This document shows positions 22,310 through 52,400 of a stretch of 64,000 nt of DNA, piece after piece. A program made the translations under genes and the position numbers. Each line of letters opens with the position of its first letter. The stretch's first letter is position 1. The stretch lies in assembly GCA_021847995.1 (NCBI GenBank), contig JAJZNE010000112.1:1-64000 (forward strand), given 5' to 3'. The stretch is from Pseudomonadota bacterium (GTDB lineage Bacteria > Pseudomonadota > Alphaproteobacteria > Acetobacterales > Acetobacteraceae). The notes under the pieces are model-generated. The model was not told the origin of the DNA and searched no databases. It saw nothing but the letters and a program-made list of their open reading frames with translations.

Positions 22310-22350
22310 GCTGAACGGACGCGACCCGGCTTGACTCGCGCGCCGTATTC

Positions 22351-22384
22351 TGAAAATATTTTCTCCATTGAGGAAAAAATTTCA
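22351..22384. promoter_or_regulatory. AT-rich 34-base dyad, probable operator of the SorC-family regulator
   Basis: In a ~70% G+C region this stretch is strikingly A/T-rich and forms an imperfect 34-base inverted repeat (26 of 34 positions self-complementary) with outer arms TGAAA/TTTCA. Nested inside is the perfect 12-base palindrome GAAAATATTTTC (22352-22363). It ends 15 bases before the regulator's ATG, so a bound protein would block transcription or sit in the promoter. SorC-family proteins bind such A/T-rich dyads as tetramers. A GANTC site (GACTC, 22333-22337) lies just upstream. Confidence 0.6.
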
Positions 22385-22399: not shown

Positions 22400-23395
22400 A
22401 TGGAGGGTTCGGTCCACGACACCGCGCTGCCCGGCAGCGAGGAGGCGGCCCTGGCGACGCGCGCCGCCTGGCTCTATCACGCCGGCGGCTTCACGCAGTC
22501 GGAAGTGGCGGAAAGGCTCGGCATCGCCGCCGCCAAGGCGCACCGGCTGATCGCCCGGGCGACCCGTGCCGGCCTCGTGCGCGTGTTCGTCGAAGGACCG
22601 ATCGGCGGCTGCATCGCGCTCGAAGATGCGCTGAGCGCCCGCCATGCACTGACGATCTGCCGCGTCGTCCCGGCGCTCGGGGAGCGTGGACTGCCGCTGC
22701 GCGCGCTCGGGACCGCCGCCGCATCATTCCTGCGTGAGGCGCTGGAGCGTGGCGCGCATCGCGTGATCGGTCTCGGCCACGGCCGCACGCTCGCCGCGGC
22801 CGTCGATTTCCTGCCGCCGACGCCGGCGCCGCAGGTCCGCCTGGTTTCGCTGCTCGGCGGCCTGCCGCGGCGTATCCGCACCGGGCCGTTCGACGTGATC
22901 CATCGCGTTGCCGAGAAGACCGGCTCCGACGCCTATCTGCTGCCGGTACCGATGTTCGCCGACAGCGAGGCGGATGCCGCGGTGCTGCGCCGCCAGCGCG
23001 GCGTTGCCGAAACGCTGGCGCTCGCCGCGGAGGCGTCGCTGGTGCTCGCCGGCATCGGCCCGATCGCCGAAGCGGCGTTTCTGCCGATGGCCGGCATGGT
23101 GACGCAGGACGAAGTGCGGGCGCTGCGCGACGCCGGTGCCGCGGGCGAGATGCTCGGCCGCTATTTCGCCGCCGACGGCAGCCCGATCGCGACCGATCTG
23201 CACGACCGGCTGATCGCGCTGCCGCCGCGCCAGGGCGGCGGCGTGGTCGCCGTCGCCGGCGGGACGGAGAAGATCGATGCCATCCGGGCCGTGCTCGCCA
23301 GCCGCGTGCTGGCCGGCCTGATCACCGACGAGCCGACCGCGCGCCGGCTCCTCGACCCACCCGACATGCCGCGCGAGATGAGGGAGAGAGACTGA
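22400..23395 (+). CDS. SorC/DeoR-family sugar-responsive transcriptional regulator (EryD-like)
   Basis: This 331-residue protein has an N-terminal helix-turn-helix (~residues 20-60: LYHAGGFTQSEVAERLGIA followed by KAHRLIARATRAGLVRVFVEG), which is the SorC-family arrangement, and a ~260-residue sugar-binding domain with IGLGHGRTLAAAVDFLP, VSLLGGLPRR, and VVAVAGGTEKIDAIRAVLASRVLAGLITDE near the C-terminus. Such regulators respond to sugar phosphates; EryD of rhizobia and Brucella belongs to this family. It is the first gene of the polyol operon and overlaps the next start as TGATG, so it is probably autoregulated through the dyad at 22351-22384. Repressor versus activator cannot be told from sequence. 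Confidence 0.85.
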   Translation: MEGSVHDTALPGSEEAALATRAAWLYHAGGFTQSEVAERLGIAAAKAHRLIARATRAGLVRVFVEGPIGGCIALEDALSARHALTICRVVPALGERGLPLRALGTAAASFLREALERGAHRVIGLGHGRTLAAAVDFLPPTPAPQVRLVSLLGGLPRRIRTGPFDVIHRVAEKTGSDAYLLPVPMFADSEADAAVLRRQRGVAETLALAAEASLVLAGIGPIAEAAFLPMAGMVTQDEVRALRDAGAAGEMLGRYFAADGSPIATDLHDRLIALPPRQGGGVVAVAGGTEKIDAIRAVLASRVLAGLITDEPTARRLLDPPDMPREMRERD

Positions 23396-24831
23396 TGGAC
23401 GAGAAGGCCAGGGACCTGTTCGACGCCTTTGTCGCAGGCAATGTCGGGCGACGGGAACTGATCCGCCGCGCCGCCGCACTCGGCATCGGGGCGGCGGCGG
23501 CGGGGACGTTCCTGAACGCGGCACAAAGCCGCGCGCTCGCCGCCGACTACAACTGGAAGGCGCACCAGGGCACGGCGCTGAAGCTGCTGCTGAACAAGCA
23601 TCCGTATGCCGACGCGATGATCGCCGATATCGAAAGCTTCAAGTCGTTGACCGGCATGTCGGTGACGTGGGACATTTTCCCCGAGGATGTCTATTTCGAC
23701 AAGGTGACGGCGGCGCTGTCGTCACACTCCACCGAATACGACGCCTTCATGACCGGCGCCTATCAGACCTGGCAGTACGGTCCCGCCGGCTGGCTGGTCG
23801 ATCTCAACGAATACCTCAGGAACGGCGCCAGGACCGCGCCGAACTACGACTGGGAAGGCGTGCTGGAGGGGCTGCGTGCCTCCACCGCGTGGTCGGGCAA
23901 GCCGGGCGACGCGCTGGGCGGCGCGGGGGCGAAGCAGTGGTGCGTGCCGTGGGGATTCGAGCTCAACAACATCAGCTATAATCAGACGATCTTCGACAAG
24001 GTCGGCGTCAAGGTGCCGAAGAACCTGCCGGAGATGCTGGAGATCGCTGCCAAGATCACCAGGGATGCCGGCGGACCCTATGGCATCGGTGTGCGTGGCA
24101 GCCGCTCCTGGGCAACCATCCATCCCGGCTTCCTGTCCGGCTATACCAACTATGGCGGCCACGACTTCGTGATGCAGGGCGGCAAGCTCAAGGCCGCGAT
24201 GAATTCGCCGCAATCGAAGGCGTTCACCAAACTCTGGGTCGAGATGATCCAGCAAAGCGGGCCGAAGAACTGGGCCACCTACACCTGGTACCAGGTCGGC
24301 ACCGATCTCGGCGCCGGTGCTTCGGGCATGATCTACGATGCCGACATCCTCGGCTATTTCATGGACGGCGGCGACAACAAGGAGCGCGGGCACCTCGCCT
24401 ATGCCGCCTTCGCCGCCAATCCGGAGGCCACCGCGCCGACCGCCAATGTCTGGATCTGGTCGCTCGCGATGTCCAACTTCTCCAGGAAGAAGGATGCGGC
24501 CTGGGACTTCATCCAGTGGGCGACCGGGACCGACCATCTGCTGTATGGCGCGCGCAAGCAGGACATGGTGAACCCGGTGCGCACCAAGGTCTGGGAGGAT
24601 CCCGAATTCAAGGAGAAGATCGGCAAATACCCCGGCTACCTCGACGAGTACACCGAGACGGCGCCGAAGGCCAAGATCTATTTCACGCCGCAGCCGCTGT
24701 TCTTCAACCTGACGACCGACTGGGCGGCGGCGTTGCAGCAGATGGTGGCGAAGCAGATCCCGGTCGATGAGGGGCTGGACAAGCTGGCGGAAAGCATCAA
24801 CCGTCAGCTCAAGAGCGCAGGACTGGGCTGA
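23395..24831 (+). CDS. ABC transporter sugar/polyol-binding protein (family 1), Tat-type leader
   Basis: This 478-residue periplasmic protein should capture the substrate of the first CUT1 importer. The leader has a twin-arginine stretch (NVGRRELIRRAAALGIGAAAAG, residues ~16-37), followed by a hydrophobic core and LNAAQSRALA, so export in folded form through Tat is likely. The mature protein starts ADYNWKAHQG and shows family 1 features: TALKLLLNKHPYADAM, DIFPEDVYFDKVTAAL, GGAGAKQWCVPWGFELNN and an Asn/Trp-rich C-terminal domain. It shares only family-level features with the binding protein of the second importer. A strong hairpin follows the gene before the permeases. Confidence 0.87.
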   Translation: MDEKARDLFDAFVAGNVGRRELIRRAAALGIGAAAAGTFLNAAQSRALAADYNWKAHQGTALKLLLNKHPYADAMIADIESFKSLTGMSVTWDIFPEDVYFDKVTAALSSHSTEYDAFMTGAYQTWQYGPAGWLVDLNEYLRNGARTAPNYDWEGVLEGLRASTAWSGKPGDALGGAGAKQWCVPWGFELNNISYNQTIFDKVGVKVPKNLPEMLEIAAKITRDAGGPYGIGVRGSRSWATIHPGFLSGYTNYGGHDFVMQGGKLKAAMNSPQSKAFTKLWVEMIQQSGPKNWATYTWYQVGTDLGAGASGMIYDADILGYFMDGGDNKERGHLAYAAFAANPEATAPTANVWIWSLAMSNFSRKKDAAWDFIQWATGTDHLLYGARKQDMVNPVRTKVWEDPEFKEKIGKYPGYLDEYTETAPKAKIYFTPQPLFFNLTTDWAAALQQMVAKQIPVDEGLDKLAESINRQLKSAGLG

Positions 24832-24895
24832 GGCGGCATCGCCCGCGCCGACCCCTGGCCCGCCCCCGCCCCCCGGGGGCGAGCGGTCGGGGCCT

Positions 24896-24928
24896 CCCGC
24901 TCCGTCTCCCCGCGCGGGAGGGAGCGGG
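24896..24928 (+). promoter_or_regulatory. Intercistronic hairpin after the binding-protein gene
   Basis: CCCGCTCC-GT-CTCCC (24896-24910) pairs with GGGAG-GGAGCGGG (24916-24928) around a CGCGC loop: 13 base pairs with a two-base bulge. A smaller palindrome (CGCCCCC/GGGGGCG, 24867-24881) lies just before it. The gap between the binding-protein stop (24831) and the permease start (24989) is the only long gap in an otherwise overlapping operon. Such elements commonly stabilise or terminate upstream mRNA so that the binding protein is made in excess. No T-run follows. Confidence 0.6.
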
Positions 24929-24988
24929 AGGAGGGGCGTCGCCCGATCGTGGGAGCCGCGTGGCAGGTAGCAGGAAAGCCCGACCGTC

Positions 24989-25924
24989 ATGTCCGACATC
25001 GCTCATCCCGCCACCTCGGCCGCCCGTGTCCACGCGGCCGGGCCGCGTGCGGCGCGGCTGCTGCCGTATCTGCTCAGCCTGCCGGCGCTGCTGGTGTGCA
25101 TCGGCATCCTGGTGCCGTTCGGCACCGCGGCATGGTACAGCCTGCAACGCTACAACCTGGCGATGCCGTTCATGCGCGGCTTCGTCGGCTTCGACACCTA
25201 TCTCGATTTTCTCGGCGATCCGGACTTCTGGAACACCGTCGAGGTTTCGGCGATTTACACAGCGGCGACGGTGATCCTGGAACTGCTGCTCGGGCTCGCC
25301 ATCGCGCTGCTGCTGCGCGAACGCAGCCCGCTCAACAACGCCATTTCGGTGGCGTTGCTGCTGCCGCTGATGACGGCGCCGGCGATCGCGGCGCTGATGT
25401 GGAAGCTGATGACCAATCCCGGCTTCGGGGTGCTGAGCTGGCTGGTCAGCCGCTTCGGGCTGGCCGATTTCAAATGGGCGTCCGACCCGCACACGGCGAT
25501 GCTGACCGTCGTGCTGGTCGATATCTGGGTCTATACGCCGTTCATAATGATCCTGCTGCTGGCCGGCCTACGCAGCCTGCCGACGCAGCCGTTCGAGGCG
25601 GCACGGCTCGATGGCGTGCCGGCGCGCTTCGTGTTCTTCCGCATCACGCTGCCGATGCTGATGCCCTACATCGTCACCGCGACGCTGTTCCGCCTGCTCG
25701 ATTCGATCCAGCAGTTCGACATCGTCTATGCCATGACGCAGGGCGGCCCTGGCGACAGCCTGATGGTGTTCCAGGTGCGCGCCTATCTGGAGTTTTTCCA
25801 GTATACCAATGTCGGCCGCTCGGCGGCACTGATGATGATCCTGTGGGCGCTGACCTACGCCCTCTCCAACGTATTCGTCAAGCAATGGCTTAGGCTGAGG
25901 GAGCGGACGCATGGCGCGTATTGA
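24989..25924 (+). CDS. CUT1 ABC transporter permease, MalF/UgpA-type
   Basis: This 311-residue inner-membrane protein is the first permease of the importer. It has six predicted helices, starting LLPYLLSLPALLVCIGILVPFG, and the ATPase-docking EAA loop FEAARLDGVPARFVFFRITLP (a 21-residue stretch near residue 205), then LLDSIQQFDIVYAMTQGGPG, a signature of this permease type in sugar importers. The stop overlaps the next permease start by 14 bases. Family is certain; substrate can only be guessed from the catabolic genes downstream. Confidence 0.92.
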   Translation: MSDIAHPATSAARVHAAGPRAARLLPYLLSLPALLVCIGILVPFGTAAWYSLQRYNLAMPFMRGFVGFDTYLDFLGDPDFWNTVEVSAIYTAATVILELLLGLAIALLLRERSPLNNAISVALLLPLMTAPAIAALMWKLMTNPGFGVLSWLVSRFGLADFKWASDPHTAMLTVVLVDIWVYTPFIMILLLAGLRSLPTQPFEAARLDGVPARFVFFRITLPMLMPYIVTATLFRLLDSIQQFDIVYAMTQGGPGDSLMVFQVRAYLEFFQYTNVGRSAALMMILWALTYALSNVFVKQWLRLRERTHGAY

Positions 25925-26780
25925 CGGAACTTCCGCCTTCCTGGCGCGCGGGCTGCGCACGCTGGCGCTCGCGGTGATCGTGCTCTTCTTCCTCTTCCCG
26001 ATCCTGTGGATCGTGCTGATGAGCTTTCAGACCAACGAGCAGATCCTGCGCATCCCGCCGAGTCTGCTCTTCGACCCGACGATCGTGAACTACCGCGCAC
26101 TGATCTCGGGCAAGCTGGTGACGGCGGCCGGCCAGCTTGATCTGCCGTTCATGCGCAACCTCGGCAACTCCGTGCTGCTGTCATCGGTCTCGGTGCTGCT
26201 GTCGCTGGTGCTCGGCGTGCCGGCGGCCTATGCGTTTGCCCGCTTCCGCTTCCGCCTGGGGGAGAATATCGCCTTCACGCTGCTGTCGTTCCGGTTCGCG
26301 CCGCCGCTGCTGGTGCTGCTGCCGCTGTCGCTCTATTTCCAGGATCTCGGCCTCGCCAACACCTACACTGGCCTCGTCTGGGTCTATCAGCTGATCTGCC
26401 TGCCGCTGATCCTGTGGATCGTGCGCGGCTATTTCGAGGATGCCAGTCCCGATATCGAATATGCCTATCGCGTCGATGGTCATTCGTGGTGGCGGGCCTT
26501 CACCCGCATCGCCATCCCGCTCGCCGGGCCGGGCATCGCCGCGGCCGGGCTGCTCGCCTTCATCTTTGCTTGGAACAACTTCGTCTTCGCCCTCATCCTC
26601 GCCTCCGCTGACAAGCAGCCTGTGACGGTTGGCGCGCTCGCCTTCGTCACCGCGTCCGGCATCCAGTACGGGCAGATCGCCGCCGCCATCGTGCTCTCCA
26701 TCCTGCCCACGCTCGCGCTCGCGCTCTATGCCCAGCGCTGGCTGGTGGAAGGCCTCAGCCTGGGAGCGGTCAAGGGATGA
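25911..26780 (+). CDS. CUT1 ABC transporter permease, MalG/UgpE-type
   Basis: This 289-residue protein is the second permease, pairing with the product of the preceding gene. The N-terminal helix (LALAVIVLFFLFPILWIVLMSF) and FQTNEQILRIPPSLLF match MalG-type permeases. The EAA loop region is degenerate: DIEYAYRVDGHSWWRAFTRIAIP replaces the usual EAA-x3-G by EYAYRVDG. The C-terminal SLGAVKG resembles the usual GAVKG ending of MalG-type proteins. It overlaps its neighbours on both sides, so translation is coupled. Confidence 0.92.
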   Translation: MARIDGTSAFLARGLRTLALAVIVLFFLFPILWIVLMSFQTNEQILRIPPSLLFDPTIVNYRALISGKLVTAAGQLDLPFMRNLGNSVLLSSVSVLLSLVLGVPAAYAFARFRFRLGENIAFTLLSFRFAPPLLVLLPLSLYFQDLGLANTYTGLVWVYQLICLPLILWIVRGYFEDASPDIEYAYRVDGHSWWRAFTRIAIPLAGPGIAAAGLLAFIFAWNNFVFALILASADKQPVTVGALAFVTASGIQYGQIAAAIVLSILPTLALALYAQRWLVEGLSLGAVKG

Positions 26781-27883
26781 GCGCCGATCCGGGACTTGCC
26801 GTCCGCGCCCTCTCGGTCACATTCGGTCGCAACCATCTGCTGCGCGGCATCGATTTCGATGTCGCGGAGGGCGAGACGCTGGTGCTGTTCGGCCCTTCGG
26901 GCGTCGGCAAGACGGTATTGCTGCGCGCGATCGCCGGGCTGGAGCCGGCGGCGCGCGGCGAGGTGCGGGTTGCCGGGCGCGACGTCTCGATGCGCGGGCC
27001 GGAGGCGCGTGGCATCGGCATGGCGTTCCAGAACTTCGCGCTTTATCCGCACATGTCGGCCCGCGACAATATCGCCAGCCCGCTGCGCGCGCGCGGGGTT
27101 TCCCGCGCCGAGATCGAGCGGCGCGTCGGCGCCGTCGCCGACCTGCTGCGTATCGGCCACGTGCTCGGCCACGCGCCGAAGGAGCTTTCCAACGGGCAGA
27201 AGCAGCGCACTGCGCTCGCCCGCGCCCTGGTCGGCGAGCCGCGCGTGCTGCTGCTCGATGATCCGCTGCGCAATGTCGATGCCAAGCTGCGCTATGAAAT
27301 GCGGCTCGAATTCCCCCGCCTGCTGCGCACCGCCGGGGCCGCGACGCTGTACGTGACGCAGGATTACCGGGAGGCGATGGCGCTCGGCGACCGCGTGGCA
27401 ATCCTGCTCGACGGGCGGATCGCGCAGACGGCACCGCCGGAGACGGTGTACGAGCATCCCGACTCGGTCGCCGTCGCACGGCTGTTCGGCGATCCGCCGA
27501 TCAACCTTCTGCCCTGCCGCCCGACGGAGAGCACCGGCGGCGTGCAGGTCGCGGCGGCGGGGCTGCGCCTGACGCTGCCGGCAGCGCAGCACGCGATCGG
27601 GCGGGACTGCCTGCTCGGCCTGCGGCCGGAGGCGATCGCGGTGCATGCGGCGGCGCTGCCGGGGGCCGCGCCGGCGCAGCTCAACGCCACCACGCCGCTG
27701 CACGAACGCCTCGTCGTGCTGCTGCGGGCGGGCGGCGAGGAGGTGGTGGCGAGCGTGCTGGGCGAGGTGCCGGTACCGGGCAGCGCCGTCTGGATCAGCG
27801 CCGACCCGGCGCAGGCGACGCTGTTCGATGCTGGTTCCGGTGCCCGCATCGCCGCCCCCGCGCCGGTGCGGGAGGCAGCATGA
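26777..27883 (+). CDS. CUT1 ABC transporter ATPase 1, with degenerate catalytic residues
   Basis: This 368-residue MalK/UgpC-type ATPase has an intact Walker A (GPSGVGKT, residues 39-46) and Q-loop (Gln85 in AFQNFALYP), with the D-loop Asp at 168. The signature is LSNGQ (137-141) instead of LSGGQ. The Walker B is LLLDDP, so the catalytic Glu is Asp162, and the switch histidine is Gln195 (YVTQDYREA). A C-terminal TOBE-like regulatory domain (~240-368) follows. It overlaps the next ATPase gene by 4 bases. Together with that gene it probably forms a heterodimer in which this subunit's own ATP site hydrolyses poorly. Confidence 0.9.
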   Translation: MSADPGLAVRALSVTFGRNHLLRGIDFDVAEGETLVLFGPSGVGKTVLLRAIAGLEPAARGEVRVAGRDVSMRGPEARGIGMAFQNFALYPHMSARDNIASPLRARGVSRAEIERRVGAVADLLRIGHVLGHAPKELSNGQKQRTALARALVGEPRVLLLDDPLRNVDAKLRYEMRLEFPRLLRTAGAATLYVTQDYREAMALGDRVAILLDGRIAQTAPPETVYEHPDSVAVARLFGDPPINLLPCRPTESTGGVQVAAAGLRLTLPAAQHAIGRDCLLGLRPEAIAVHAAALPGAAPAQLNATTPLHERLVVLLRAGGEEVVASVLGEVPVPGSAVWISADPAQATLFDAGSGARIAAPAPVREAA

Positions 27884-28977
27884 GCCTTCTCCTCGACCGG
27901 CTCAGCAAGACCTATCCCGGCCGCGACGGGCACCCGGTGCGCGCCGTGCTCGGCCTCGATCTGCATGTCGAGGACGGCGAGATCGTCGCGCTGCTCGGCT
28001 CCTCCGGCTGCGGCAAGACGTCGACCCTGCGCATGATCGCGGGGTTCGAGAGCGTCACCGCCGGCACGATCACGCTGGCAGGGCGGCGCATCGACGGGCA
28101 GCCGCCGGACCGGCGCGGGGTGGCGATGGCGTTCGAGGGATATGCGCTGTACCCGCCGCTCACCATCGCCGAGAATATCGGCTTCGGCCTCGTCCGCGAC
28201 AAGCGCGGCCTGTCGCGCGAGGCGGCAGCGCAGCGGGTGCGGGAGATGGCCGAGATGCTTGAGATTGCGCCGCTGCTGGCGCGCCGTCCCGGCGGGCTGT
28301 CCGGCGGGCAGCAGCAGCGGGCCAGCCTGGCGCGGGCGCTGGCGCGCGATGCCGCGCTCTATCTGCTGGACGAGCCGATGGGGCAGTTGGAACCGCAACT
28401 GCGCGCGGTGCTGCGCGGGCGGGTCAAGGCGGCGCTGAAATCCCGCGGCTGCACGGCGCTGCTCGTCACCCACGACCAGACCGAGGCGAACGCGATGGCG
28501 GATCGCATCGCGGTGATGGAAGGGGGCGTGCTGCAACAATACGGCCCGCCCGCCGTGCTGCGGGAGCGGCCGGCCAATCTGTTCGTCGCGACCTTCCTCG
28601 GCGAGCCGCCGATGAACGCGCTCGCGGCGAAAGTGCAGCCGGAGGGGCTCAGTCTCGCCGATGCCGCCGGTCAGTGCATCCCGCTGCCCGGCGTCAAGCT
28701 GCCGCCGGACGGCGTCAACGTCGTGCTCGGCGTTCGCCCGCATCATCTGCACCTCGGCGAAGGCCCGCTCTCCGGCACCGTGATCTCCAACCAGTGGCTC
28801 GGCGATCAGGCGCATGTGGTGATCGAGCTGCGCGAGAAGATCATCGTCGCCGTCAGCCACACGCGGGTGAAGCTGCGCGCGGGGGAGCGCATCGCCTTCG
28901 GTTTCCGGCCTGCCCACGCGCACATCTTCGACGGCCAGACCGGGCGGGCGCTGGCGCATGGACCGCAGCCGGCATGA
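27880..28977 (+). CDS. CUT1 ABC transporter ATPase 2
   Basis: This 365-residue partner ATPase has a normal Walker A (GSSGCGKT, 40-47), signature LSGGQ (140-144), Walker B with catalytic Glu165 (LYLLDEP) and switch His198 (LVTHDQ). Its deviations are in other places: the Q-loop residue is Glu86 (AFEGYALYP) and the D-loop Asp is Glu171 (QLEPQLR). These differences are complementary to those of ATPase 1. A TOBE-type regulatory domain occupies ~240-365 (GVRPHHLHLGEGPLSGTVIS, FGFRPAHAHIFDGQTGRAL). CUT1 importers with two distinct ATPases include the rhizobial glycerol transporter GlpST. It overlaps the kinase gene downstream by 4 bases. Confidence 0.9.
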   Translation: MSLLLDRLSKTYPGRDGHPVRAVLGLDLHVEDGEIVALLGSSGCGKTSTLRMIAGFESVTAGTITLAGRRIDGQPPDRRGVAMAFEGYALYPPLTIAENIGFGLVRDKRGLSREAAAQRVREMAEMLEIAPLLARRPGGLSGGQQQRASLARALARDAALYLLDEPMGQLEPQLRAVLRGRVKAALKSRGCTALLVTHDQTEANAMADRIAVMEGGVLQQYGPPAVLRERPANLFVATFLGEPPMNALAAKVQPEGLSLADAAGQCIPLPGVKLPPDGVNVVLGVRPHHLHLGEGPLSGTVISNQWLGDQAHVVIELREKIIVAVSHTRVKLRAGERIAFGFRPAHAHIFDGQTGRALAHGPQPA

Positions 28978-30548
28978 GACGCCCGGTCATCGTCGCGCTC
29001 GATTCCGGCACCTCCGTGGTCAAGGCGGTGGCGTTCACCGATCACGGCGACATTCTTGCCGCGTCGTCGCGGCCGAATGCCTATGTCACCCTGCCGGGCG
29101 GCGGCGTCGAGCAGGACATGCGGCGCAGTTGGCAGGATGCCGCGGCGGTGCTGCGTGCACTGGCCGAAGACCTCGCCGCACGGCATGCGGGGGTGGAGAT
29201 CGTTGCCCTCGGCATCACCGGCCAGGGCGACGGCACCTGGCTGATCGATGCTGCCGGCGAGCCGGTCGGCGACGGCTGGCTGTGGCTCGATGCGCGGGCT
29301 GCCGCGATCGTCGAGGAACTGAAGGTGACCGGCGCCGCGGCGGCGGCCTTCGCACATACCGGCACCGGCCTTGCCGCCTGCCAGCAGGGACCGCAACTGC
29401 TGTGGCTGCAACGCCACCGTCCGGACCTGCTGGCGCGCGCGGCAGCGGCGCTGCATCCCAAGGATTACCTCTATTTCCGCGCCACCGGGCAGCGCCGCAC
29501 CAGCCCGTGCGAGGGCTGCTTCAGCTTCGGCGACTTCCGCACCCGTACCTATTGCGACGAGGTACTGCGCGCGATCGGCCTTGCCGATGCGCGCCGCCTG
29601 CTGCCGCCGATGCAGGACGGCACGCTCGCCGCCGATCCGTTGTCGGACGAGGCGGCGCGGCAGACCGGACTGCCGGCGGGGCTGCCGGTGGTGCTCGGCT
29701 ATGTCGATGTGCTGTGCACGTCGCTCGGCGCCGGGCTGTACGGCACCGGTCCTGATGTCGGCGTCTCGATCGTCGGCAGCACGGGCATGCACATGCGGCT
29801 GGTGCCCGATGTCGCAGCGGTGGCGCCGAGTGCCGCGATGACCGGCTACTGCATGGCATTTCCGGTGCCAGGGCACACCATGCAGGCACAGACCAACATG
29901 GCGGCGACGCTGAACATCGACTGGCTCGCCGACATCGTGGCCGATGCGGCGTCACTCGTCGGGACGGCGCCGGGCCGGGAGGAGATCGTGCGCGCGCTAG
30001 GCCCGCTCGCGCAGGCGGCGCAGCCCGGGGCGGCGCTGTTCCATCCGTTCATCTCCGCCGCCGGCGAACGCGGACCGTTCACCGATGCCGCCGCGCGTGC
30101 GTCGCTGCTCGGTCTCGATCAATCGGTGCGTCTGCCCGCCCTTGCGCGCGCGGTGTTCGAGGGGCTGGGGCTGGCGGCGCGCGACTGCTATGACGCGATC
30201 GGCGGGGCGCCGGGCGATATCCGGCTGACCGGCGGGGCCGCACGGTCGCCGGTGATCCGGCAAATCCTGGCCGCCTGTCTCGATCGTCCGGTACGCGTCG
30301 CGTCGCAGCCGGAGGCAGGGGCGGCCGGGGTGGCGATGATGGCGGCGGTGTGCATCGGCCTTCATCCCGACATGGCCGCCTGCGCGCAGGCTTTCGTCGC
30401 CGCCCGGCTGGAAGCGCCGCTCGATCCCGCGCCGCAACTGGTCAGGCTGTACCGGGCGCTCTTTCCGGTTTACCGGGACGCCTATGCCGCGCTGCCCACC
30501 ATCTGGCGCAGGCTGCGCGAGGTGCAGGAGATGCAGGATGGCCGATGA
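28974..30548 (+). CDS. FGGY-family carbohydrate kinase, erythritol kinase (EryA)-like
   Basis: This 524-residue cytosolic kinase probably phosphorylates the imported polyol. The N-terminal ATPase motif is VIVALDSGTSVVKAVAFTDHG; the EryA-type segment ITGQGDGTWLIDAAGEP, followed by DGWLWLDARAAAIVEEL, distinguishes it from glycerol kinase. FHPFISAAGERGPFTD and the adenosine loop DIRLTGGAARSPVIRQIL follow in the C-terminal half. Its start overlaps the ATPase 2 stop as ATGA and its 3' end overlaps the next gene by 11 bases. EryA makes an erythritol phosphate; xylitol-type and other polyol kinases share the subfamily, so the exact substrate is open. Confidence 0.8.
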   Translation: MRRPVIVALDSGTSVVKAVAFTDHGDILAASSRPNAYVTLPGGGVEQDMRRSWQDAAAVLRALAEDLAARHAGVEIVALGITGQGDGTWLIDAAGEPVGDGWLWLDARAAAIVEELKVTGAAAAAFAHTGTGLAACQQGPQLLWLQRHRPDLLARAAAALHPKDYLYFRATGQRRTSPCEGCFSFGDFRTRTYCDEVLRAIGLADARRLLPPMQDGTLAADPLSDEAARQTGLPAGLPVVLGYVDVLCTSLGAGLYGTGPDVGVSIVGSTGMHMRLVPDVAAVAPSAAMTGYCMAFPVPGHTMQAQTNMAATLNIDWLADIVADAASLVGTAPGREEIVRALGPLAQAAQPGAALFHPFISAAGERGPFTDAAARASLLGLDQSVRLPALARAVFEGLGLAARDCYDAIGGAPGDIRLTGGAARSPVIRQILAACLDRPVRVASQPEAGAAGVAMMAAVCIGLHPDMAACAQAFVAARLEAPLDPAPQLVRLYRALFPVYRDAYAALPTIWRRLREVQEMQDGR

Positions 30549-31599
30549 AGAAGGTGCCGCACGCTGCGAGGTGGCGATCGTCGGTGACAATTTCATGCTG
30601 CCCGAGACGTTCGAGCGCGCCATCCTCGCCGCCTGCGGCGATCGCGTGCGCCTGCGCAGCCTGCGCCTGCCGTGGCCCGATGCCCCGATGGAGCATGGCT
30701 ATGCCCGGGCGGGCGTTGCCGGGCTCAAGGAATACCAGGGCGATCCCGATGCCATCGTCGATTTCGTCGCCGCCGCGGAGGTGCTGGTCACCCAGCTTGC
30801 GCCGCTGTCGGCAGCGATGCTCGATCGGTTGCCGGCATTGCGGCTGGTGGCCGTCTCGCGCGGCGGGCCGGTCAACATCGACATGGCGGCGGCGCGGGCG
30901 CGTGGCGTGCGCGTGGTCAATACCCCGGGCCGCAACGCCTCCGCCGTCGCCGAATTCACCATCGGCGCGATCCTTGCCGAAACCAGACTGATCCGTGCCG
31001 GGCACGAGGCGTTGCGGGCCGGCGAATGGCGCGGCGATCTCTATCGCGCCGATCGGACCGGGCGGGAATTGTCCGAACTCACTGTCGGCGTGGTCGGCTA
31101 TGGCCAGGTCGGTACGCGGGTGGTGCGCCTGTTGAAGGCATTCGGCTGCCGCATTCTGGTGGCCGACCCGTATGTCCAGCTCTCCGCCGCCGACCGTGAC
31201 GACGGCGTCGCGCATGTCCCGCTGGAGCGTGTGTTGGCCGAGGCCGATGTGGTGTCGCTGCATGCCCGGGTGACGGCGGAGACGACGGGCTTCATCGGCC
31301 GCGCGCAGTTGGCGGCGATGAAGCCGGGTGCGCTGCTCGTCAACACCGCGCGCGGGCCGCTGCTGGACTATGCGGCGCTCTATGAGGCCCTTTCCTCCGG
31401 CCATCTCGGTGGCGCGATGCTGGAGACGTTTGCCGTGGAGCCGGTGCCGCCCGACTGGAAGCTGCTGCAACTGCCGAACGTGACGCTGACGCCGCACATC
31501 GCAGGCGCCTCGGTGAAAACCGTGACCATCGCAGCACAGGCGGCGGCGGAGGAAGTGCGACGCCACATCGCCGGCCAACCGCCGCTCAATCCGTGCTGA
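30538..31599 (+). CDS. D-isomer-specific 2-hydroxyacid dehydrogenase (PGDH-like)
   Basis: This 353-residue NAD(P)-dependent enzyme has the two-domain fold of phosphoglycerate and glyoxylate reductases. The dinucleotide loop is LTVGVVGYGQVGTRVVRLL (~residue 181 on); the catalytic Arg is in VNTARGPLLDYAALYEAL, the Glu in ETFAVEPVP and the His in LTPHIAGAS, all intact. It sits between the EryA-like kinase and the EryB-like dehydrogenase, so it may oxidise or reduce a hydroxyacid made from the same polyol. Such a gene is not part of the standard erythritol pathway. The ATG at 30538 is inside the kinase gene's 3' end, in another frame. Confidence 0.85.
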   Translation: MADEEGAARCEVAIVGDNFMLPETFERAILAACGDRVRLRSLRLPWPDAPMEHGYARAGVAGLKEYQGDPDAIVDFVAAAEVLVTQLAPLSAAMLDRLPALRLVAVSRGGPVNIDMAAARARGVRVVNTPGRNASAVAEFTIGAILAETRLIRAGHEALRAGEWRGDLYRADRTGRELSELTVGVVGYGQVGTRVVRLLKAFGCRILVADPYVQLSAADRDDGVAHVPLERVLAEADVVSLHARVTAETTGFIGRAQLAAMKPGALLVNTARGPLLDYAALYEALSSGHLGGAMLETFAVEPVPPDWKLLQLPNVTLTPHIAGASVKTVTIAAQAAAEEVRRHIAGQPPLNPC

Positions 31600-31606
31600 G
31601 CGGCAC

Positions 31607-33097
31607 ATGAACGATCCGTTCGACCTTCTCGTCATCGGCGGCGGCGTCAACGGCGCCGGCATCGCGCGCGATGCCGCCGGGCGCGGCCTGTCGGTGATGC
31701 TGGCGGAGAAGGGCGATCTGGCGGAGGGCACGTCGTCGCGCTCCGGCAAGCTGATCCACGGCGGGCTGCGCTATCTCGAATACTACGAATTCCGCCTCGT
31801 GCGGGAGGCGCTGATCGAGCGCGAGGTGCTGCTGCGCGCGGCACCGCACATCGTCTGGCCGCTGCGCTTCGTGCTGCCGCACAGCGCCGAGCAGCGGCCG
31901 GCCTGGCTGGTTCGGCTGGGCCTGTTCCTTTATGACCATCTCGGCGGACGCGAGCGTCTGCCGGGCACGCGCCGGCTCGATCTGCGCCGCGCACCGGAGG
32001 GGGCGGCGATCCGCCCGGCCTATCGCACGGCATTCGAATATTCCGACTGCTGGGTGGACGATGCCAGGCTGGTCGTGCTCAACGCGCTCGATGCGGCGGC
32101 ACGCGGGGCGGCCGTGCGCTTGCGGACCGCCGTGGTTTCGGCGCGGCGCACCGGCGGGCTGTGGCAGGCGACGCTGCGTGCCGCGGACGGCATCACGGAA
32201 ACGCTGCATGCGCGCGCGCTGGTGAACGCCGCCGGGCCGTGGGTGGAACAGGTGATCTCCGGCGTGCTCGGCGCGAATGCGTCGCGGCGCGTGCGGCTGG
32301 TCAAGGGCAGCCATATCGTCGTGCGCAAGTTCTGGGACGGGCCGCACGCCTATCTTCTGCAGAACGACGACAGGCGGGTGATCTTCGTCAATCCGTACGA
32401 GGGCGATCTCTGCCTGATCGGCACGACCGACATTCCCTATGACGGTGCCGCCGAGGAGGTGGCGATCGACGACGGGGAACGCGCCTATCTCTGCCGCGTC
32501 GTCAACCGCTACATGCGGCAGGAAATCACGCCCGCCGACATCCTGCATGAGTTTTCCGGCGTGCGTCCGCTCTATGACGACAACGCCGCGAATCCCTCGG
32601 CGGTGACGCGGGACTACGTGTTCGATGTGGAGGCGGCCGTGGGCCAGGCACCGCTGCTGTCGGTGTTCGGCGGCAAGATCACCACCTACCGCCGGCTGGC
32701 CGAGCATGCGTTGCAGAAACTCGGGGCGTTCCTTCCGAACATGGCGGGGGACTGGACGCGCGCCGCGCCGCTGCCCGGCGGCGATCTTCCGGACGCGGAT
32801 TTCGCCGCCTGGCTTGCGGCCTTCCGGCGTCGCCATCCGTTCCTGCCGCCGGCGCTGGCGCATCACTATGCGCGGCTCTACGGCACACGCGCAGACGCGC
32901 TGCTGGAAGGTGCCCGCGGCCTTGCCGATCTCGGACGGCACTTCGGCGCGCTGCTGTATGAGCGGGAGGCGGACTTCCTCAGGCGGACGGAATGGGCGCA
33001 GAATGCCGAGGACGTGCTGTTCCGCCGCACCAAGCACCATTTGCACATGACCGCGGCCGAGCGCGACGCGTTCGCTGCCTGGATGGCACACGCATGA
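31607..33097 (+). CDS. FAD-dependent glycerol-3-phosphate/polyol-phosphate dehydrogenase (GlpD/EryB-like)
   Basis: This 496-residue flavoprotein oxidises a polyol phosphate to a ketose phosphate and passes electrons to quinone at the membrane. It has the FAD loop LLVIGGGVNGAGIARDAAGRG (21 residues, ~8-28), the GlpD signature SSRSGKLIHGGLRYLEYYE, substrate-site IGTTDIPYDGAAEEV, and VFGGKITTYRRLAEHAL. The C-terminal helical domain ends RTKHHLHMTAAERDAF, with the RRTK motif typical of GlpD. EryB of the erythritol pathway is a GlpD homologue that sits beside EryA, as here; glycerol 3-phosphate remains possible, but the adjacent kinase is not GlpK. Confidence 0.87.
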   Translation: MNDPFDLLVIGGGVNGAGIARDAAGRGLSVMLAEKGDLAEGTSSRSGKLIHGGLRYLEYYEFRLVREALIEREVLLRAAPHIVWPLRFVLPHSAEQRPAWLVRLGLFLYDHLGGRERLPGTRRLDLRRAPEGAAIRPAYRTAFEYSDCWVDDARLVVLNALDAAARGAAVRLRTAVVSARRTGGLWQATLRAADGITETLHARALVNAAGPWVEQVISGVLGANASRRVRLVKGSHIVVRKFWDGPHAYLLQNDDRRVIFVNPYEGDLCLIGTTDIPYDGAAEEVAIDDGERAYLCRVVNRYMRQEITPADILHEFSGVRPLYDDNAANPSAVTRDYVFDVEAAVGQAPLLSVFGGKITTYRRLAEHALQKLGAFLPNMAGDWTRAAPLPGGDLPDADFAAWLAAFRRRHPFLPPALAHHYARLYGTRADALLEGARGLADLGRHFGALLYEREADFLRRTEWAQNAEDVLFRRTKHHLHMTAAERDAFAAWMAHA

Positions 33098-34083
33098 ACG
33101 GCATTGCCGACGATCCGGAATTCCGCGCCCTGCGCCGCTACAGTGCGGTGATCGGGGCTGATGCGGCGCTGGTGCAGGGTGCCGGCGGCAACGTTTCGCT
33201 CAAGCGCGATGGCGTGCTGTGGGTGAAGGCGTCGGGCACCTGGCTCGCGCGTGCCGAGGCGCAGGACATCATGGTGCCGGTGGCGCTCGATCCCCTGCTG
33301 GCCGCGATCTATGCCGACGACGCGGTGGCGATGGAGGATGCCGCGCGGTTCGTGCCGGCGGCGCGCAACCCGGCAGGGCTGCGCCCGTCGATCGAGACGA
33401 CCATGCACGCGCTGCTGCCGCATCCGGTGGTGGTGCATGTCCATTGCGTGGAAACGATCGCCTGGTCCTGCCGCACGGATGCCGCGACGGCTCTGGCCCC
33501 GCTGCTGGCGGGACTGGCGTGGAGCTTCGTGCCCTATGTCCGCCCGGGGGCGCCGCTGGCGCGGGCGATGCGCCTGCGCCCCGGCGCGCGGCCGGACGTG
33601 ATCGTGCTCGGCAATCATGGCCTGGTGGTCGGTGCGGGGAACACCGCGGCGGCGGCGGCGCTGGTGGCGGAGGTGGCAACCCGGCTGCGCCGTTCCCCGC
33701 GCGCGGCGCCGCCGCCGGGTCTGCTGCCGCTGCTGGCGGGTTATCGCCCGGCGGCGGATGCGCGGACGCATGGCGTGGCGACCGATCCGCGCGCGCTCGC
33801 CGTGGCGCGGCGCGGGTCGCTGTATCCCGATCACGTCATCTTTCTCGGACGTGGCATCGGCGAGCCGCCGGCGCGCGATGCGGCGCTGCTGGCGGTGGCG
33901 GGGTGCGGCGTGCTGCTGCGTGCCGATGCGTCGGCCGGGGCGGTCGCGCTCGCGCGCTGCCTTGCCGACGTGACCGCGCGGCTTGATCCGGCCGAAGATT
34001 TGCGGGTGCTGACGGCGGACGAGGAAGCCGCGCTGCTCGGCTGGGACGCCGAGCAGTACCGGCAATCGCTGGACCGTCGATGA
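33094..34083 (+). CDS. Class II aldolase/adducin family protein
   Basis: This 329-residue protein has the zinc-dependent class II aldolase fold. Residues AALVQGAGGNVSLKRDGVLWVKASGTWL form the N-terminal substrate pocket; the zinc-binding histidines are in ETTMHALLPHPVVVHVHCVE (HVH) and in VIVLGNHGLVVG, with a Glu for acid/base chemistry in the first. About 100 further residues after the usual domain make it longer than fuculose-phosphate aldolase and closer to the long RhaD-like form. It could cleave a ketose phosphate to two-carbon and three-carbon units or decarboxylate a keto acid phosphate. Both ends overlap neighbours as ATGA. Confidence 0.82.
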   Translation: MNGIADDPEFRALRRYSAVIGADAALVQGAGGNVSLKRDGVLWVKASGTWLARAEAQDIMVPVALDPLLAAIYADDAVAMEDAARFVPAARNPAGLRPSIETTMHALLPHPVVVHVHCVETIAWSCRTDAATALAPLLAGLAWSFVPYVRPGAPLARAMRLRPGARPDVIVLGNHGLVVGAGNTAAAAALVAEVATRLRRSPRAAPPPGLLPLLAGYRPAADARTHGVATDPRALAVARRGSLYPDHVIFLGRGIGEPPARDAALLAVAGCGVLLRADASAGAVALARCLADVTARLDPAEDLRVLTADEEAALLGWDAEQYRQSLDRR

Positions 34084-35330
34084 GCGGGGTCGCGATCGGG
34101 ATCGACATCGGCACGTCCGGCGTGCGGGCGGCGCTGGTCGATGCGACGGGGGCGGCGGTCGCTTTCGCGGCGGCGCCAATCCCGCCTGCCGCCCGGCGTG
34201 ACCCGCAAGCCCTGTGGCAGGCGGCCGGTGCGGTGCTGGCGGCCCTGGGCGCGCGGGCACCGCTCGCGGCGGTGCGGGCGCTGGCGGTCGATGGCACGTC
34301 GGGCACGGTCCTGCCGGTCGATCGTGCCGGCACGCCGCTCGCCCCTGCCAGCCTGTACAGCGATCCGGCCCCGCCCGACGCGCTCGCCCGCATCGCCGCG
34401 GCGGCGCCGGAGGACAGTGCCGCGCACGGCGCCGCCTCACCGGCGGCAAAGGCGCTGGCGTGGCAGGATCACGCCGGTCTGGCCTGGGTGCTGCACGAGG
34501 CGGATTGGCTGGCCGGCCGGTTCTGCGGCCGGTTCGGCGTGTCGGACGAGAACAATGCGCTCAAGACCGGCTATGATCCGCGTGCCCGCTGCTGGCCGGC
34601 ATGGCTGCGCACGATCGGCCTGGAGGTGGCGCGCCTGCCGCAGGTGCAACCGCCGGGTGCGCCGCTTGCACCCGTGCGGCCGGAGGTCGCAGCCCGCTTC
34701 GGCCTGCCGGCGGCAATCCTTGTCGTCTCCGGGACCACCGACGGCTGCGCCGCCTTTCTGGCAACCGGGGCCAACGCGGTCGGGGAGGGGGTGACCTCGC
34801 TCGGTTCGACGCTGACGATCAAGCTGCTGTCGGACCGGCCGGTGTTCGCGCCGCGATATGGCATCTACAGCCATCGCCTCGGCGATCGCTGGCTGCCGGG
34901 CGGGGCGTCCAATACCGGAGGGGCGGCGCTGGCGCGGCATTTTGACCCGGCTGCGCTGGAACGCCTGTCGGCCGGCATCGATCCCGCCACGGCCAGCGGC
35001 CTCGACTATTACCCGCTGCCGGCGCCGGGGGAGCGGTTCCCGATCGCCGATCCGGCCATGCCGCCGCGGGAAGATCCCCGGCCGGCGGGGGAGGTGGCGT
35101 TCCTGCATGGCTTGCTGGAGGGGATCGCGCGGATCGAGGCGCTGGCGTATCGTCGGTTGGCGGAGCTCGGCGCGCCGGCCGTCCGGAGCGTGCGCAGCGT
35201 CGGCGGCGGCGCGGCCAATCCGGCATGGACGGCGCTGCGCGCGCGCCATCTCGGTGTTCCCATGCTGCCGCCGCGGGCGGAGGAGGCGGCGGCGGGAACG
35301 GCCGGATTGGCGCTTCGGGGGGTGGGATGA
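34080..35330 (+). CDS. FGGY-family kinase, D-ribulokinase-like
   Basis: This 416-residue kinase is the second FGGY enzyme in the operon and is shorter than the first. It starts VAIGIDIGTSGVRAALVDATG, has AVDGTSGTVLPVDRAGTPL and the segment TSLGSTLTIKLLSDRPVF followed by YGIYSHRLGDRWLPGGASNTGG, which resembles the plant/cyanobacterial D-ribulose kinase subfamily. The adenosine loop VRSVGGGAANPAWTALRARHLG is present. Having two different FGGY kinases suggests two entry substrates or two branches. Ribulose 5-phosphate would feed Rpe and RpiB encoded nearby. Specificity is inferred from motif resemblance only. Confidence 0.75.
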   Translation: MSGVAIGIDIGTSGVRAALVDATGAAVAFAAAPIPPAARRDPQALWQAAGAVLAALGARAPLAAVRALAVDGTSGTVLPVDRAGTPLAPASLYSDPAPPDALARIAAAAPEDSAAHGAASPAAKALAWQDHAGLAWVLHEADWLAGRFCGRFGVSDENNALKTGYDPRARCWPAWLRTIGLEVARLPQVQPPGAPLAPVRPEVAARFGLPAAILVVSGTTDGCAAFLATGANAVGEGVTSLGSTLTIKLLSDRPVFAPRYGIYSHRLGDRWLPGGASNTGGAALARHFDPAALERLSAGIDPATASGLDYYPLPAPGERFPIADPAMPPREDPRPAGEVAFLHGLLEGIARIEALAYRRLAELGAPAVRSVRSVGGGAANPAWTALRARHLGVPMLPPRAEEAAAGTAGLALRGVG

Positions 35331-36157
35331 TCGTGCTGCCGGGCATCGATGGGTTGCTCGCGCACCATGCTGCCTTCCTGATCGATCAGTTCGGCACGCT
35401 GCACGACGGCACCACCGCCTATCCCGGTGCCGCCGCGGCGCTGCTGCGCATGAGGGCGGCAGGAAAGCGCGTGGTGCTGCTGTCCAACTCGGCGCGGCAG
35501 GCGGCGCCGAACGCGCGGCGGCTGGCGCGGCTCGGCTTCGCGCCGGAGGCGTATGACCTGCTGCTCACTTCCGGCGAGGTGGCGCGGCGGCTGCTGCTGG
35601 CGGGTGCCGTGCCGGCGGCCCGCGGTGCGCGGCGCTGCCTGCTGCTGGAACGTCCCGGCGAAGGCTCCGCCCTGGACGGGATCGACCTCACGCCGGTGGG
35701 GCCGGAGGCGGCGGAACTGGTGGTGATCGCCGGCAGCGAGGGGGAGCGGCACACGCTCGACTGGTATGCGGATATGCTCGCCGGTCCGGCGCGGCGTGGC
35801 GTGCCGGCCCTCTGCCTCAATCCCGACCGCACCATGCTGACGTCGTCCGGCCTCGCCTTCGCGGCGGGGCGGATCGCCGAACTCTATCAGGAAATGGGCG
35901 GCGAGGTGACGTGGATCGGCAAGCCCCATCCGGCGATCTATGCGATGGCCATGGAAGCGCTTGGCGGCGTGCCGGCATCGCAGGTTGCGGGCGTCGGGGA
36001 TTCGATCGAACATGACGTGGCCGGCGCGCGGGCGGCCGGCTGCGGCGCGTGGCTGGTGCGCACCGGGATCATCCGCGGCTGGAGCGACTCGGCGATCGTC
36101 GCCGAGTGCCGGCGCCTCGGCGTGATGCCGGACGGGGTGGTGCAAGCGTTCGCCTGA
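35327..36157 (+). CDS. HAD-superfamily IIA phosphatase (TIGR01459-type)
   Basis: This 276-residue HAD hydrolase has motif I as FLIDQFGTLHDGTTAYPGA, where the nucleophile Asp is present but the second Asp of DxD is Phe, as in the NagD-like subgroup that has DxWG; motif II VVLLSNSARQ; and motifs III/IV WIGKPHPAIYAMAMEAL and VAGVGDSIEHDVAGARAAGC. The C2 cap lies between. It probably dephosphorylates a sugar phosphate, either recycling dead-end intermediates or making a free ketose. It overlaps the ribulokinase-like gene as ATGA and is followed 17 bases later by the isomerase-like gene. Confidence 0.8.
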   Translation: MIVLPGIDGLLAHHAAFLIDQFGTLHDGTTAYPGAAAALLRMRAAGKRVVLLSNSARQAAPNARRLARLGFAPEAYDLLLTSGEVARRLLLAGAVPAARGARRCLLLERPGEGSALDGIDLTPVGPEAAELVVIAGSEGERHTLDWYADMLAGPARRGVPALCLNPDRTMLTSSGLAFAAGRIAELYQEMGGEVTWIGKPHPAIYAMAMEALGGVPASQVAGVGDSIEHDVAGARAAGCGAWLVRTGIIRGWSDSAIVAECRRLGVMPDGVVQAFA

Positions 36158-36174
36158 CGCCGGAGGGGGGCACG

Positions 36175-37053
36175 ATGAAGGTTGGCTTCAATCTGCTGCT
36201 CTGGACCACCCATGTGGAGGAGCAGCATCTGCCGCAGATCGCGGCCCTGAAGGCGGCCGGGTATGACGGGGTGGAAGTGCCGATGTTCGGCGGCGATGCC
36301 GGGCATTACCGCCGGCTCGGTGCGCGCATCCGCGACCTCGGGCTGGCCGCCACCGCGGTCACCGTCATCCCCGACGCGGCCCGCAACCCGCTCAGTGCCG
36401 ACCCCGCGCATCGCCGCGCCGCCGTCGCGCATCTGACGGCGGCGGCCGAATGGGCGGCGGAACTCGGGTCCACGCTGCTGTGCGGGCCGATCGGCCAGCC
36501 GCTCGGCCTGTTCACCGGAGCCGCGCCGACCGAGGCGGAGAAATCCCGCCTCGCCGAGGTGCATCACGCCGCCGCCGAGGCCGCGGCCCGGCACCGGCTG
36601 GTACTGGTGATGGAATATCTGAACCGGTTCGAATCCTACATCGTCAACACGATGGCCGACGCCCTGGCGCACGCCGCGCGGGTCGATCATGCGAATTTCG
36701 GCATCATGCACGATACCTTCCACGCCAATCTGGAGGAGAAAGATCCGGTCGGCATCATCTTCCAGGCGGCGCCGAAGCTGCGCCACGTGCATATCTCGGA
36801 GAACGACCGCGGCACCCCGGGACGCGGGCATATCCCGTTCGCGGCGCATTTCAAGGCGTTGCGCGCGATCGGCTATGACGGCTGGCTGGTGGTGGAGGCG
36901 TTCGGCCGCGCCCTGCCCGATCTGGCCGCGGCAACGCGCGTGTGGCGGGATTTCGCGCCGAACGAGGCCCAGATCTACAACGAGGCGATCCGTCTGATCC
37001 GCGACCTGTGGGCGGCCGCCGGACCGGCGGGAGCGGCGGGTCGATCGAACTGA
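36175..37053 (+). CDS. Hydroxypyruvate isomerase/EryC-like TIM-barrel isomerase
   Basis: This 292-residue protein belongs to the xylose-isomerase-like/AP-endonuclease 2 TIM-barrel superfamily. Metal and catalytic residues are visible in VEVPMFGGDAGHYRRLG, VLVMEYLNRFESYIVN (first Glu), NFGIMHDTFHANLEEKD (Asp, His), LRHVHISENDRGTPGRGHIPF (His, Glu, Asp, Arg) and WLVVEAFG (second Glu), as in tagatose 3-epimerase and Hyi-type enzymes. EryC, the tetrulose-phosphate racemase of Brucella, belongs to this superfamily. GGAGGGGGG directly precedes the ATG. It is the last gene of the operon and converges with the second transporter operon across 35 bases without a clear terminator. Confidence 0.8.
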   Translation: MKVGFNLLLWTTHVEEQHLPQIAALKAAGYDGVEVPMFGGDAGHYRRLGARIRDLGLAATAVTVIPDAARNPLSADPAHRRAAVAHLTAAAEWAAELGSTLLCGPIGQPLGLFTGAAPTEAEKSRLAEVHHAAAEAAARHRLVLVMEYLNRFESYIVNTMADALAHAARVDHANFGIMHDTFHANLEEKDPVGIIFQAAPKLRHVHISENDRGTPGRGHIPFAAHFKALRAIGYDGWLVVEAFGRALPDLAAATRVWRDFAPNEAQIYNEAIRLIRDLWAAAGPAGAAGRSN

Positions 37054-37088: not shown

Positions 37089-37400
37089 CTAATCCCCCGG
37101 CGCCACCCATGCGGCATAGAGCACCGCCGCCCCGAGCGAGAGTGCGGTGACGACTGCGAAGATCACCACGATCACGAGCACGGCCCGCGCCAGCGCGCCC
37201 CATGTCACGCCCGGGCGGCACAGCGGCACCAGATTGAACAGCAATCCGACGATCACGATCGCCGCCGCGCCGACGCTGAACAGGCCGAGCGAGAACGGCT
37301 GGAAGATCAGCACCAGCGCCAGCAGGCTCGCGGCGACGATCGTCACCTCCAGCGCCCGCGCGCTTCCCGCCGAGAAGCCGCGCCCCGAGGAACCGCTCAT
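37089..37400 (-). CDS. Small three-helix membrane protein of the second ABC operon
   Basis: This 103-residue protein starts MSGSSGRGFSAGSARALEV and has three hydrophobic segments: VTIVAASLLALVLIFQPF, LGLFSVGAAAIVIVGLLFN and ARAVLVIVVIFAVVTALSLG. Its ATG overlaps the ATPase gene stop as ATGA, so it is co-translated with the transporter. I do not recognise the family. By position it resembles GlpU, the small unknown membrane protein in the rhizobial glycerol importer operon, but I see no sequence resemblance. A role as an accessory subunit of the importer is inference. Confidence 0.7.
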   Translation of the reverse strand: MSGSSGRGFSAGSARALEVTIVAASLLALVLIFQPFSLGLFSVGAAAIVIVGLLFNLVPLCRPGVTWGALARAVLVIVVIFAVVTALSLGAAVLYAAWVAPGD

Positions 37401-38515: not shown

Positions 38516-38526
38516 TCCCCTGTCTT

Positions 38527-40373: not shown

Positions 40374-40391
40374 GTGACAGGCGGCGAACGC

Positions 40392-40424: not shown

Positions 40425-40441
40425 TTCGGCGCAGGGTCAGG

Positions 40442-52396: not shown

Positions 52397-52400
52397 GTGA

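Follow-up and report, generated by a model that had tools for sequence, protein, structure and literature searches.

The polyol locus of Sinorhizobium meliloti comprises eryD, mptABCDE, eryA, rbtA, fucA1, eryB, lalA, rbtB, rbtC, eryC, eryR, tpiB and rpiB and serves erythritol, adonitol and L-arabitol, all three of which are carried by its Mpt transporter (Geddes, Hausner and Oresnik 2013; PMC3599248). A second source likewise lists erythritol, adonitol (ribitol) and L-arabitol for MptABCDE, with one sentence there naming D-arabitol (PMC10433430). Among related loci, those of category 3 are of the ribitol (adonitol)/L-arabitol type without the erythritol-specific genes eryC, eryR and tpiB, and are recorded for Bradyrhizobium BTAi1 and ORS278, Acidiphilium and Verminephrobacter (PMC3599248, Table 2). 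Erythritol loci of the Brucella/R. leguminosarum type are built from eryEFG, eryABCD and eryR-tpiB-rpiB. Here, we analyzed a 64,000-nucleotide stretch (the window) of contig JAJZNE010000112.1 from an Acetobacteraceae bacterium (GCA_021847995.1, the host genome), in which 13 plus-strand genes span positions 22400-37053. With a probability of roughly 0.78, genes 1-12 (22400-36157) form a category-3 locus of the S. meliloti type, most likely serving ribitol and L-arabitol, substrates that we extrapolate from S. meliloti genetics.

Pfam and NCBIfam family calls agree with the 13-gene inventory of the original prediction, made from the DNA sequence, which had reported a CUT1 importer, a D-2-hydroxyacid dehydrogenase, a class II aldolase, a second FGGY kinase and a HAD protein in a coupled operon. 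Its statement that most junctions overlap by 1-14 bases also stands: with the gene starts refined in our analysis, such overlaps occur at 9 of the 12 junctions, and the remaining gaps measure 157, 7 and 17 bases. The genes are listed below in order, with identities taken from the best tblastn segment against four reference loci (L014, L019, L050 and L095).

22400-23395, plus strand: eryD, SorC-family regulator; 48-56% identity to EryD of the four reference loci
23395-24831, plus strand: mptA, CUT1 solute-binding protein; 65-69% identity in the four reference loci
24989-25924, plus strand: first mpt permease; 71-78% identity
25911-26780, plus strand: second mpt permease; 80-81% identity in three reference loci and 87% over a fragment in L014
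26777-27883, plus strand: first mpt ATPase, MalK-type; 52-54% identity
27880-28977, plus strand: second mpt ATPase, MalK-type; 53-55% identity
28974-30548, plus strand: eryA, FGGY-family polyol kinase; 48-51% identity
30538-31599, plus strand: rbtA, D-2-hydroxyacid-dehydrogenase-family protein; 72-73% identity, also placed by a tree
31607-33097, plus strand: eryB, GlpD-family FAD polyol-phosphate dehydrogenase; 66-68% identity
33094-34083, plus strand: lalA, class II (zinc) aldolase nearest to RhaD-type domains; 51-52% identity in the three reference loci with lalA in view
34080-35330, plus strand: rbtB, second and shorter FGGY kinase; 52-58% identity
35327-36157, plus strand: rbtC, TIGR01459 HAD-IIA hydrolase with motif I DQFG; 51-53% identity in L095 and L019, fragments only in L014 (47%) and L050 (44%)
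36175-37053, plus strand: gene 13, xylose-isomerase-like TIM barrel resembling ketose 3-epimerases, probably a flanking gene (homology and neighbourhoods)

The nearest solved structure to MptA is the sorbitol-binding protein 4rya. A tblastn search with the 13 proteins found genes 1-12 collinear in Sinorhizobium fredii NGR234 (pNGR234b, L019) and S. meliloti Ak57 (L014), with gene 13 absent from both loci. The order in the window, eryD-mptABCDE-eryA-rbtA-eryB-lalA-rbtB-rbtC, is that of the S. meliloti locus on the same strand; the two differ in that fucA1, eryC, eryR and tpiB are not at the locus here and that gene 13 stands at its 3' end. NGR234 is described as carrying every locus gene except fucA1 (PMC3599248), and the small class II aldolase encoded between the dehydrogenase and GlpD in L014 is precisely the one missing from L019, where EryC, EryR, TpiB and RpiB are encoded downstream. 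The original prediction had taken the CUT1 importer and the added enzymes as marks of a new pathway and proposed a neighbourhood search for the same gene set. Run here, that search returned the same genes in the same order from the S. meliloti-type mpt/ery/rbt/lal locus, i.e., a set already known. The pentitol it had included among the possible substrates now appears likely, as the S. meliloti-type locus serves adonitol and L-arabitol. Judged by these sequence comparisons, the operon is a further member of a described locus type, largely ordinary rather than a new system.

Assignment to category 3 follows the published identity cut-offs (PMC3599248), with the difference that we used the best tblastn segment, whereas the paper used BLASTP against proteins of S. 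meliloti strain 1021. The S. meliloti-like locus L095 was taken as reference because L014 has MptA and RbtC as fragments. Eight of the 12 cut-offs concern proteins present here, and all eight are exceeded: MptA 66% (cut-off 56%), EryD 48% (44%), EryA 48% (46%), RbtA 72% (50%), EryB 68% (65%), LalA 51% (49%), RbtB 54% (51%) and RbtC 51% (40%), the margin being just 2-4 points for LalA, RbtB, EryA, EryB and EryD. The other four, EryC (68%), EryR (61%), TpiB (69%) and EryG (73%), are reached nowhere in the host genome, which is 94% complete. Presence of the eight together with absence of EryC, EryR, TpiB and EryG at these cut-offs places the locus in category 3, whose pattern of presence and absence in the columns of the published table it shares (PMC3599248). 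Compared with the category-3 locus of BTAi1, it differs in content and arrangement: BTAi1 retains fucA1, and its lalA, rbtB and rbtC are encoded on the other strand, upstream of eryD.

The same absences bear on whether the operon might encode a full erythritol pathway, with the EryC, EryH and EryI steps filled by gene 13 and by enzymes encoded elsewhere in the genome. Homologues of EryA, EryB and EryD are shared with the Brucella/R. leguminosarum type, a candidate operator resembling eryO is present, and gene 13 falls in the same Pfam family as EryC. However, the importer is CUT1 rather than the CUT2 EryEFG, rbtABC and lalA are present, and EryC, EryR and an isomerase of TpiB grade are missing. 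The EryC query gave no match in the host genome; it matched both genomes expected to have EryC and none of three further expected negatives. An EryR query, run without a positive control, also found nothing in the host genome, and the best EryG match there reached 30% against the cut-off of 73%. The genome holds a single triose-phosphate isomerase match, on another contig, with 41% identity to TpiB (cut-off 69%), and none lies at the locus, in keeping with the earlier remark that no EryH-type isomerase-like gene is present. Gene 13 was rejected as EryC: the query misses it yet matches the two expected EryC genomes, and its kinship with EryC extends to the AP_endonuc_2 superfamily only. Of the EryD/A/B/C-like set originally proposed, the EryD, EryA and EryB homologues therefore hold and EryC does not. 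Gene 13 instead resembles ketose 3-epimerases, which act on free sugars, and it also occurs in two genomes without an RbtA match (G001 and G004). LalA-RbtABC, moreover, is described as unused for erythritol (PMC3599248). We consider a complete erythritol pathway very improbable and return to the category-3 assignment, which retains the earlier view of a polyol operon related to, yet distinct from, erythritol catabolism.

Names for RbtABC and LalA were mapped to protein families by gene order, as the parts of PMC3599248 drawn on here give no families for them. The order in the cut-off list, EryA, RbtA, EryB, LalA, RbtB, RbtC, EryC (PMC3599248), equals the family order in L014 and L019: FGGY, hydroxyacid dehydrogenase, GlpD, large aldolase, short FGGY, HAD, EryC. 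Gene-number anchors in L014 fit exactly for the HAD hydrolase (SMc01617; PMC3272708) and for eryB and the polyol ATPase (SMc01620 and SMc01624; PMC12542648). The anchor ribH2 (SMc01609; PMC12542648) fits only with one intervening number unassigned; L014 has an inserted transposase between ribH2 and the locus, and its gene table is incomplete. In BTAi1, recorded with LalA, the large aldolase adjoins the HAD gene. The name-to-family mapping is thus deduced from sequence order, and is tightly constrained.

To place the locus among its relatives, GTDB genomes were scanned with an RbtA alignment, giving 282 candidates. The best 80 of the 282 were taken as loci, and 17 shorter ones were dropped before counting, leaving 63 with at least 9 kb upstream and at least 6 kb downstream of rbtA in view. 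Counting only genes within view (the lalA of BTAi1 lies beyond it), eryD, mptA and eryA each occur in 62/63 loci and eryB in 60/63, followed by rbtB (43/63), rbtC (40/63), fucA1 (38/63), eryC (27/63), tpiB (26/63), eryR (22/63) and lalA (19/63); gene 13 occurs in 0/63. Within the window's own family, an RbtA match at E ≤ 1e-60 was found in 12 of 200 genomes drawn, host included. An 87-row RbtA tree joins the window with a genome of the same genus, G002 (support 100/81); both fall in a clade of 13 rows (100/94), named Acetobacteraceae among them. G002 carries all 12 genes in order with 68-90% identity (L106, same contig as L028); it differs in retaining fucA1 between rbtA and eryB and in having gene 13 on another contig. 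The local peculiarity of the window's locus is, by this comparison, the loss of fucA1, the small aldolase.

That the RbtA proteins of this family form their own clade, and that EryA shares no more than 48-51% identity with the reference loci, would suit the proposal of the original prediction in its stronger form: the same gene set re-aimed in this family at another or branched polyol. The transporter speaks against it, since identity to the mapped system is higher for the binding protein (65-69%) and the permeases (71-81%) than for the kinase. The complete rbt/lal set is also kept, and category-3 loci are already recorded in Acidiphilium (PMC3599248). A new substrate consequently appears unlikely to us, and ribitol and L-arabitol remain the favoured pair. 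As a separate observation, the lalA-rbtB-rbtC trio stands apart from ery/mpt genes in two Aminobacter strains, Shinella, Sinorhizobium sp. B11 and genome G029 (L013, L015, L017, L018; L109). Its neighbours on all four annotated plasmids are CUT2-type transporters and DeoR regulators, and on three of these plasmids rhamnose-type genes are close by.

Gene 13 and the flanks help to delimit the operon. Gene 13 matches the ketose 3-epimerase structure 5zfs (E = 5e-38), and its NCBIfam score is 131 bits against a 300-bit cut-off. A fixed role as thirteenth gene is disfavoured by its absence from all full-view loci and by differing neighbours elsewhere: the gene before it is gyrB in G031 but not in G001, G004 or G116, and in G002 it lies between ccrM and a metallo-beta-lactamase-fold gene, away from the operon's contig. 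In G001, rbtB- and rbtC-like genes are found as well, on a different contig. The window carries the corresponding upstream gene:

21164-22309: CcrM-type adenine methyltransferase gene, directly upstream of the operon

and a metallo-beta-lactamase-fold gene at 43275-44825. Because G002 has ccrM followed by gene 13 and the operon on another contig, the most likely reading for the window is that the operon has been inserted between ccrM and gene 13, the latter probably being a flanking host gene rather than an operon member. Pointing the other way, gene 13 also comes directly after the HAD gene in G145, across a longer gap, and the 17-base gap in the window allows read-through. On the minus strand at 37397-43333, a second set of sugar ABC transporter genes, encoding MalK-type ATPases, a permease and a binding protein, converges on the operon, accompanied by a plus-strand permease gene at 43138-44109; in G031 and G145 this block adjoins gene 13. 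Further downstream lie an Alpha-E domain protein (47566-49146) and, on the other strand from it, a long hybrid protein with PAS, histidine kinase and receiver domains (49169-53200).

Upstream of eryD, two candidate regulatory elements were found:

22331-22360, plus strand: sigma-70-like promoter match, TTGACT, 18-nt spacer, AATATT (consensus match only)
22352-22380, plus strand: eryO-like candidate EryD operator, a pair of AT-rich GAAA half-sites spaced by about two helical turns (pattern scan)

Sigma-70-like matches numbered 2 in the 15.3 kb scanned against 1.1 expected in shuffles. In an Ochrobactrum erythritol cluster, the EryD binding site spans 29 bases between -35 and -10 and contains two GAAA-plus-A/T half-sites (PMC10190533). 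After this published site, we replaced a strict palindrome expression, which had found at least one half-operator palindrome in 19/75 loci and a pair in 7/75 (duplicate genomes included), with the eryO-like pair pattern. The pair in the window stands just downstream of TTGACT and is matched nowhere else in the 64 kb. The pattern occurs near the eryD start in 12/73 loci, window included, compared with 17/7200 random stretches of the same loci; it was set after the window's site had been seen.

How the products might work together can be sketched from homology. EryD would repress at the eryO-like site until polyol arrives, MptABCDE would import the polyol, and EryA would phosphorylate it intact as the first step. 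EryB and/or RbtA would next oxidise the carbon beside the phosphate, yielding D-ribulose-1-phosphate from ribitol and L-xylulose-1-phosphate from L-arabitol. In stereochemistry, the former corresponds to FucA substrates and the latter to RhaD substrates. The stereochemistry is our own derivation from Fischer projections: EryA and EryB convert erythritol via L-erythritol-4-phosphate to L-3-tetrulose-4-phosphate (PMC5992420), which, renumbered from the phosphate end, would be D-erythrulose-1-phosphate, and the same handedness was applied to ribitol and L-arabitol. In the L-arabitol branch, RhaD-like LalA would split L-xylulose-1-phosphate into dihydroxyacetone phosphate (DHAP) and glycolaldehyde; in the ribitol branch, RbtC would remove and RbtB replace the phosphate, turning D-ribulose-1-phosphate into D-ribulose-5-phosphate. 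Such a scheme would explain why lalA is named as an L-arabitol gene, through cleavage of L-xylulose-1-phosphate, and why fucA1 is dispensable in S. meliloti (PMC3599248), through the phosphate move to C5; ribulose-1-phosphate aldolase activity has been published for a FucA homologue (PMC9700705). Without fucA1 at the locus, the window's host would depend on RbtC and RbtB unless a FucA-like gene on host contig C75 (50% identity), beside a ketose-epimerase paralogue and a xylulokinase, stands in. That contig (L138, 5299-10847) encodes a LacI-type regulator, a ketose 3-epimerase-like protein, a xylulokinase, a second FGGY kinase and the FucA-like aldolase, possibly another ketopentose or pentitol pathway.

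The best models for LalA are RhaD-type aldolase domains, and those for FucA1 are FucA and, further down, ribulose-1-phosphate aldolase. Pairwise, LalA is nearer to bifunctional RhaD (26% over 204 columns, E = 2e-10) than to FucA1 (E = 0.004), and its likely zinc ligands E101, H115, H117 and H175 are conserved in at least 95% of 38 sequences. An AraD-type L-ribulose-5-phosphate 4-epimerase is disfavoured for LalA by these RhaD-type matches and by the lack of any AraD model at E ≤ 0.001.

A second reading concerns RbtA, whose relatives are glyoxylate reductases and glycerate and phosphoglycerate dehydrogenases. It may instead handle the two-carbon product (glycolaldehyde, glycolate or glyoxylate) and leave oxidation of the pentitol phosphates to EryB alone. 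Its residues R272, E301 and H320, conserved in at least 95% of 87 sequences, fit this alternative; an Arg/Glu/His set comprises the functional residues of 2-hydroxyacid dehydrogenases. Yet four loci (L023, L094, L097 and L137) combine EryA, RbtA and an aldolase with no GlpD/EryB match in the 20-26 kb in view, so that RbtA is the only dehydrogenase found there between kinase and aldolase, although EryB may be encoded elsewhere in those genomes. The missing EryB favours RbtA as a polyol-phosphate dehydrogenase; a two-carbon role for RbtA is still a serious possibility, short of even odds. L023 (5285-15271) and L137 (7555-12047) are reduced: they encode EryD, EryA, RbtA and FucA1, EryB is not in view, and they may help to show what RbtA does.

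Several observations count against the assignment of locus and enzymes given above. The paper that defined the categories cautions that polyol use is undescribed for some hosts of these loci (PMC3599248). In many loci lalA, rbtB and rbtC are not all in view (19, 43 and 40 of 63). The eryO-like pair occurs in only 12/73 loci and was unmatched in BTAi1, NGR234 and most Bradyrhizobium and Mesorhizobium loci, and also in three of four Brucella-type loci scanned whole, L021 giving the sole match. Model scores for the aldolases fall below curated cut-offs (LalA, 71 against 931 bits; FucA1, 222 against 264). HAD phosphatases usually carry a second Asp in motif I. In RbtC, this motif is D-Q-(F/Y)-G, either DQFG or DQYG, in 28/28 sequences, and the nearest solved structure, 6nq4, has DVWG; with Phe or Tyr in place of the second Asp throughout, it is doubtful that RbtC acts as a phosphatase. 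Conservation of Arg/Glu/His in RbtA would also suit a true 2-hydroxy acid, and RbtA may thus act on a two-carbon acid or aldehyde. With EryB and RbtA both kept, either or both could oxidise the pentitol phosphate. None of the literature searched offers, by title or abstract, biochemistry of LalA or RbtABC, and the primary paper (10.1099/mic.0.057877-0), outside that search, may already contain some. Taken whole, the route in which pentitol is phosphorylated first, RbtA oxidises the polyol phosphate, and the ketose-1-phosphate is either cleaved by an epimer-matched class II aldolase or has its phosphate moved from C1 to C5 by the HAD/FGGY pair is a tentative proposal.

An apparently new pathway is herewith probably settled as a mapped locus type, adding a category-3 locus in the family that holds named Acetobacteraceae. 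The comparison also yields a testable enzyme assignment for four genes, rbtA, lalA, rbtB and rbtC, of a locus that scores of genomes carry. If phosphorylation does come first, LalA would serve L-xylulose-1-phosphate and FucA1 D-ribulose-1-phosphate, both leading to DHAP and glycolaldehyde, and the locus would employ two unusual enzymes: a HAD protein in which the customary second Asp is missing and an FGGY kinase of reduced length.

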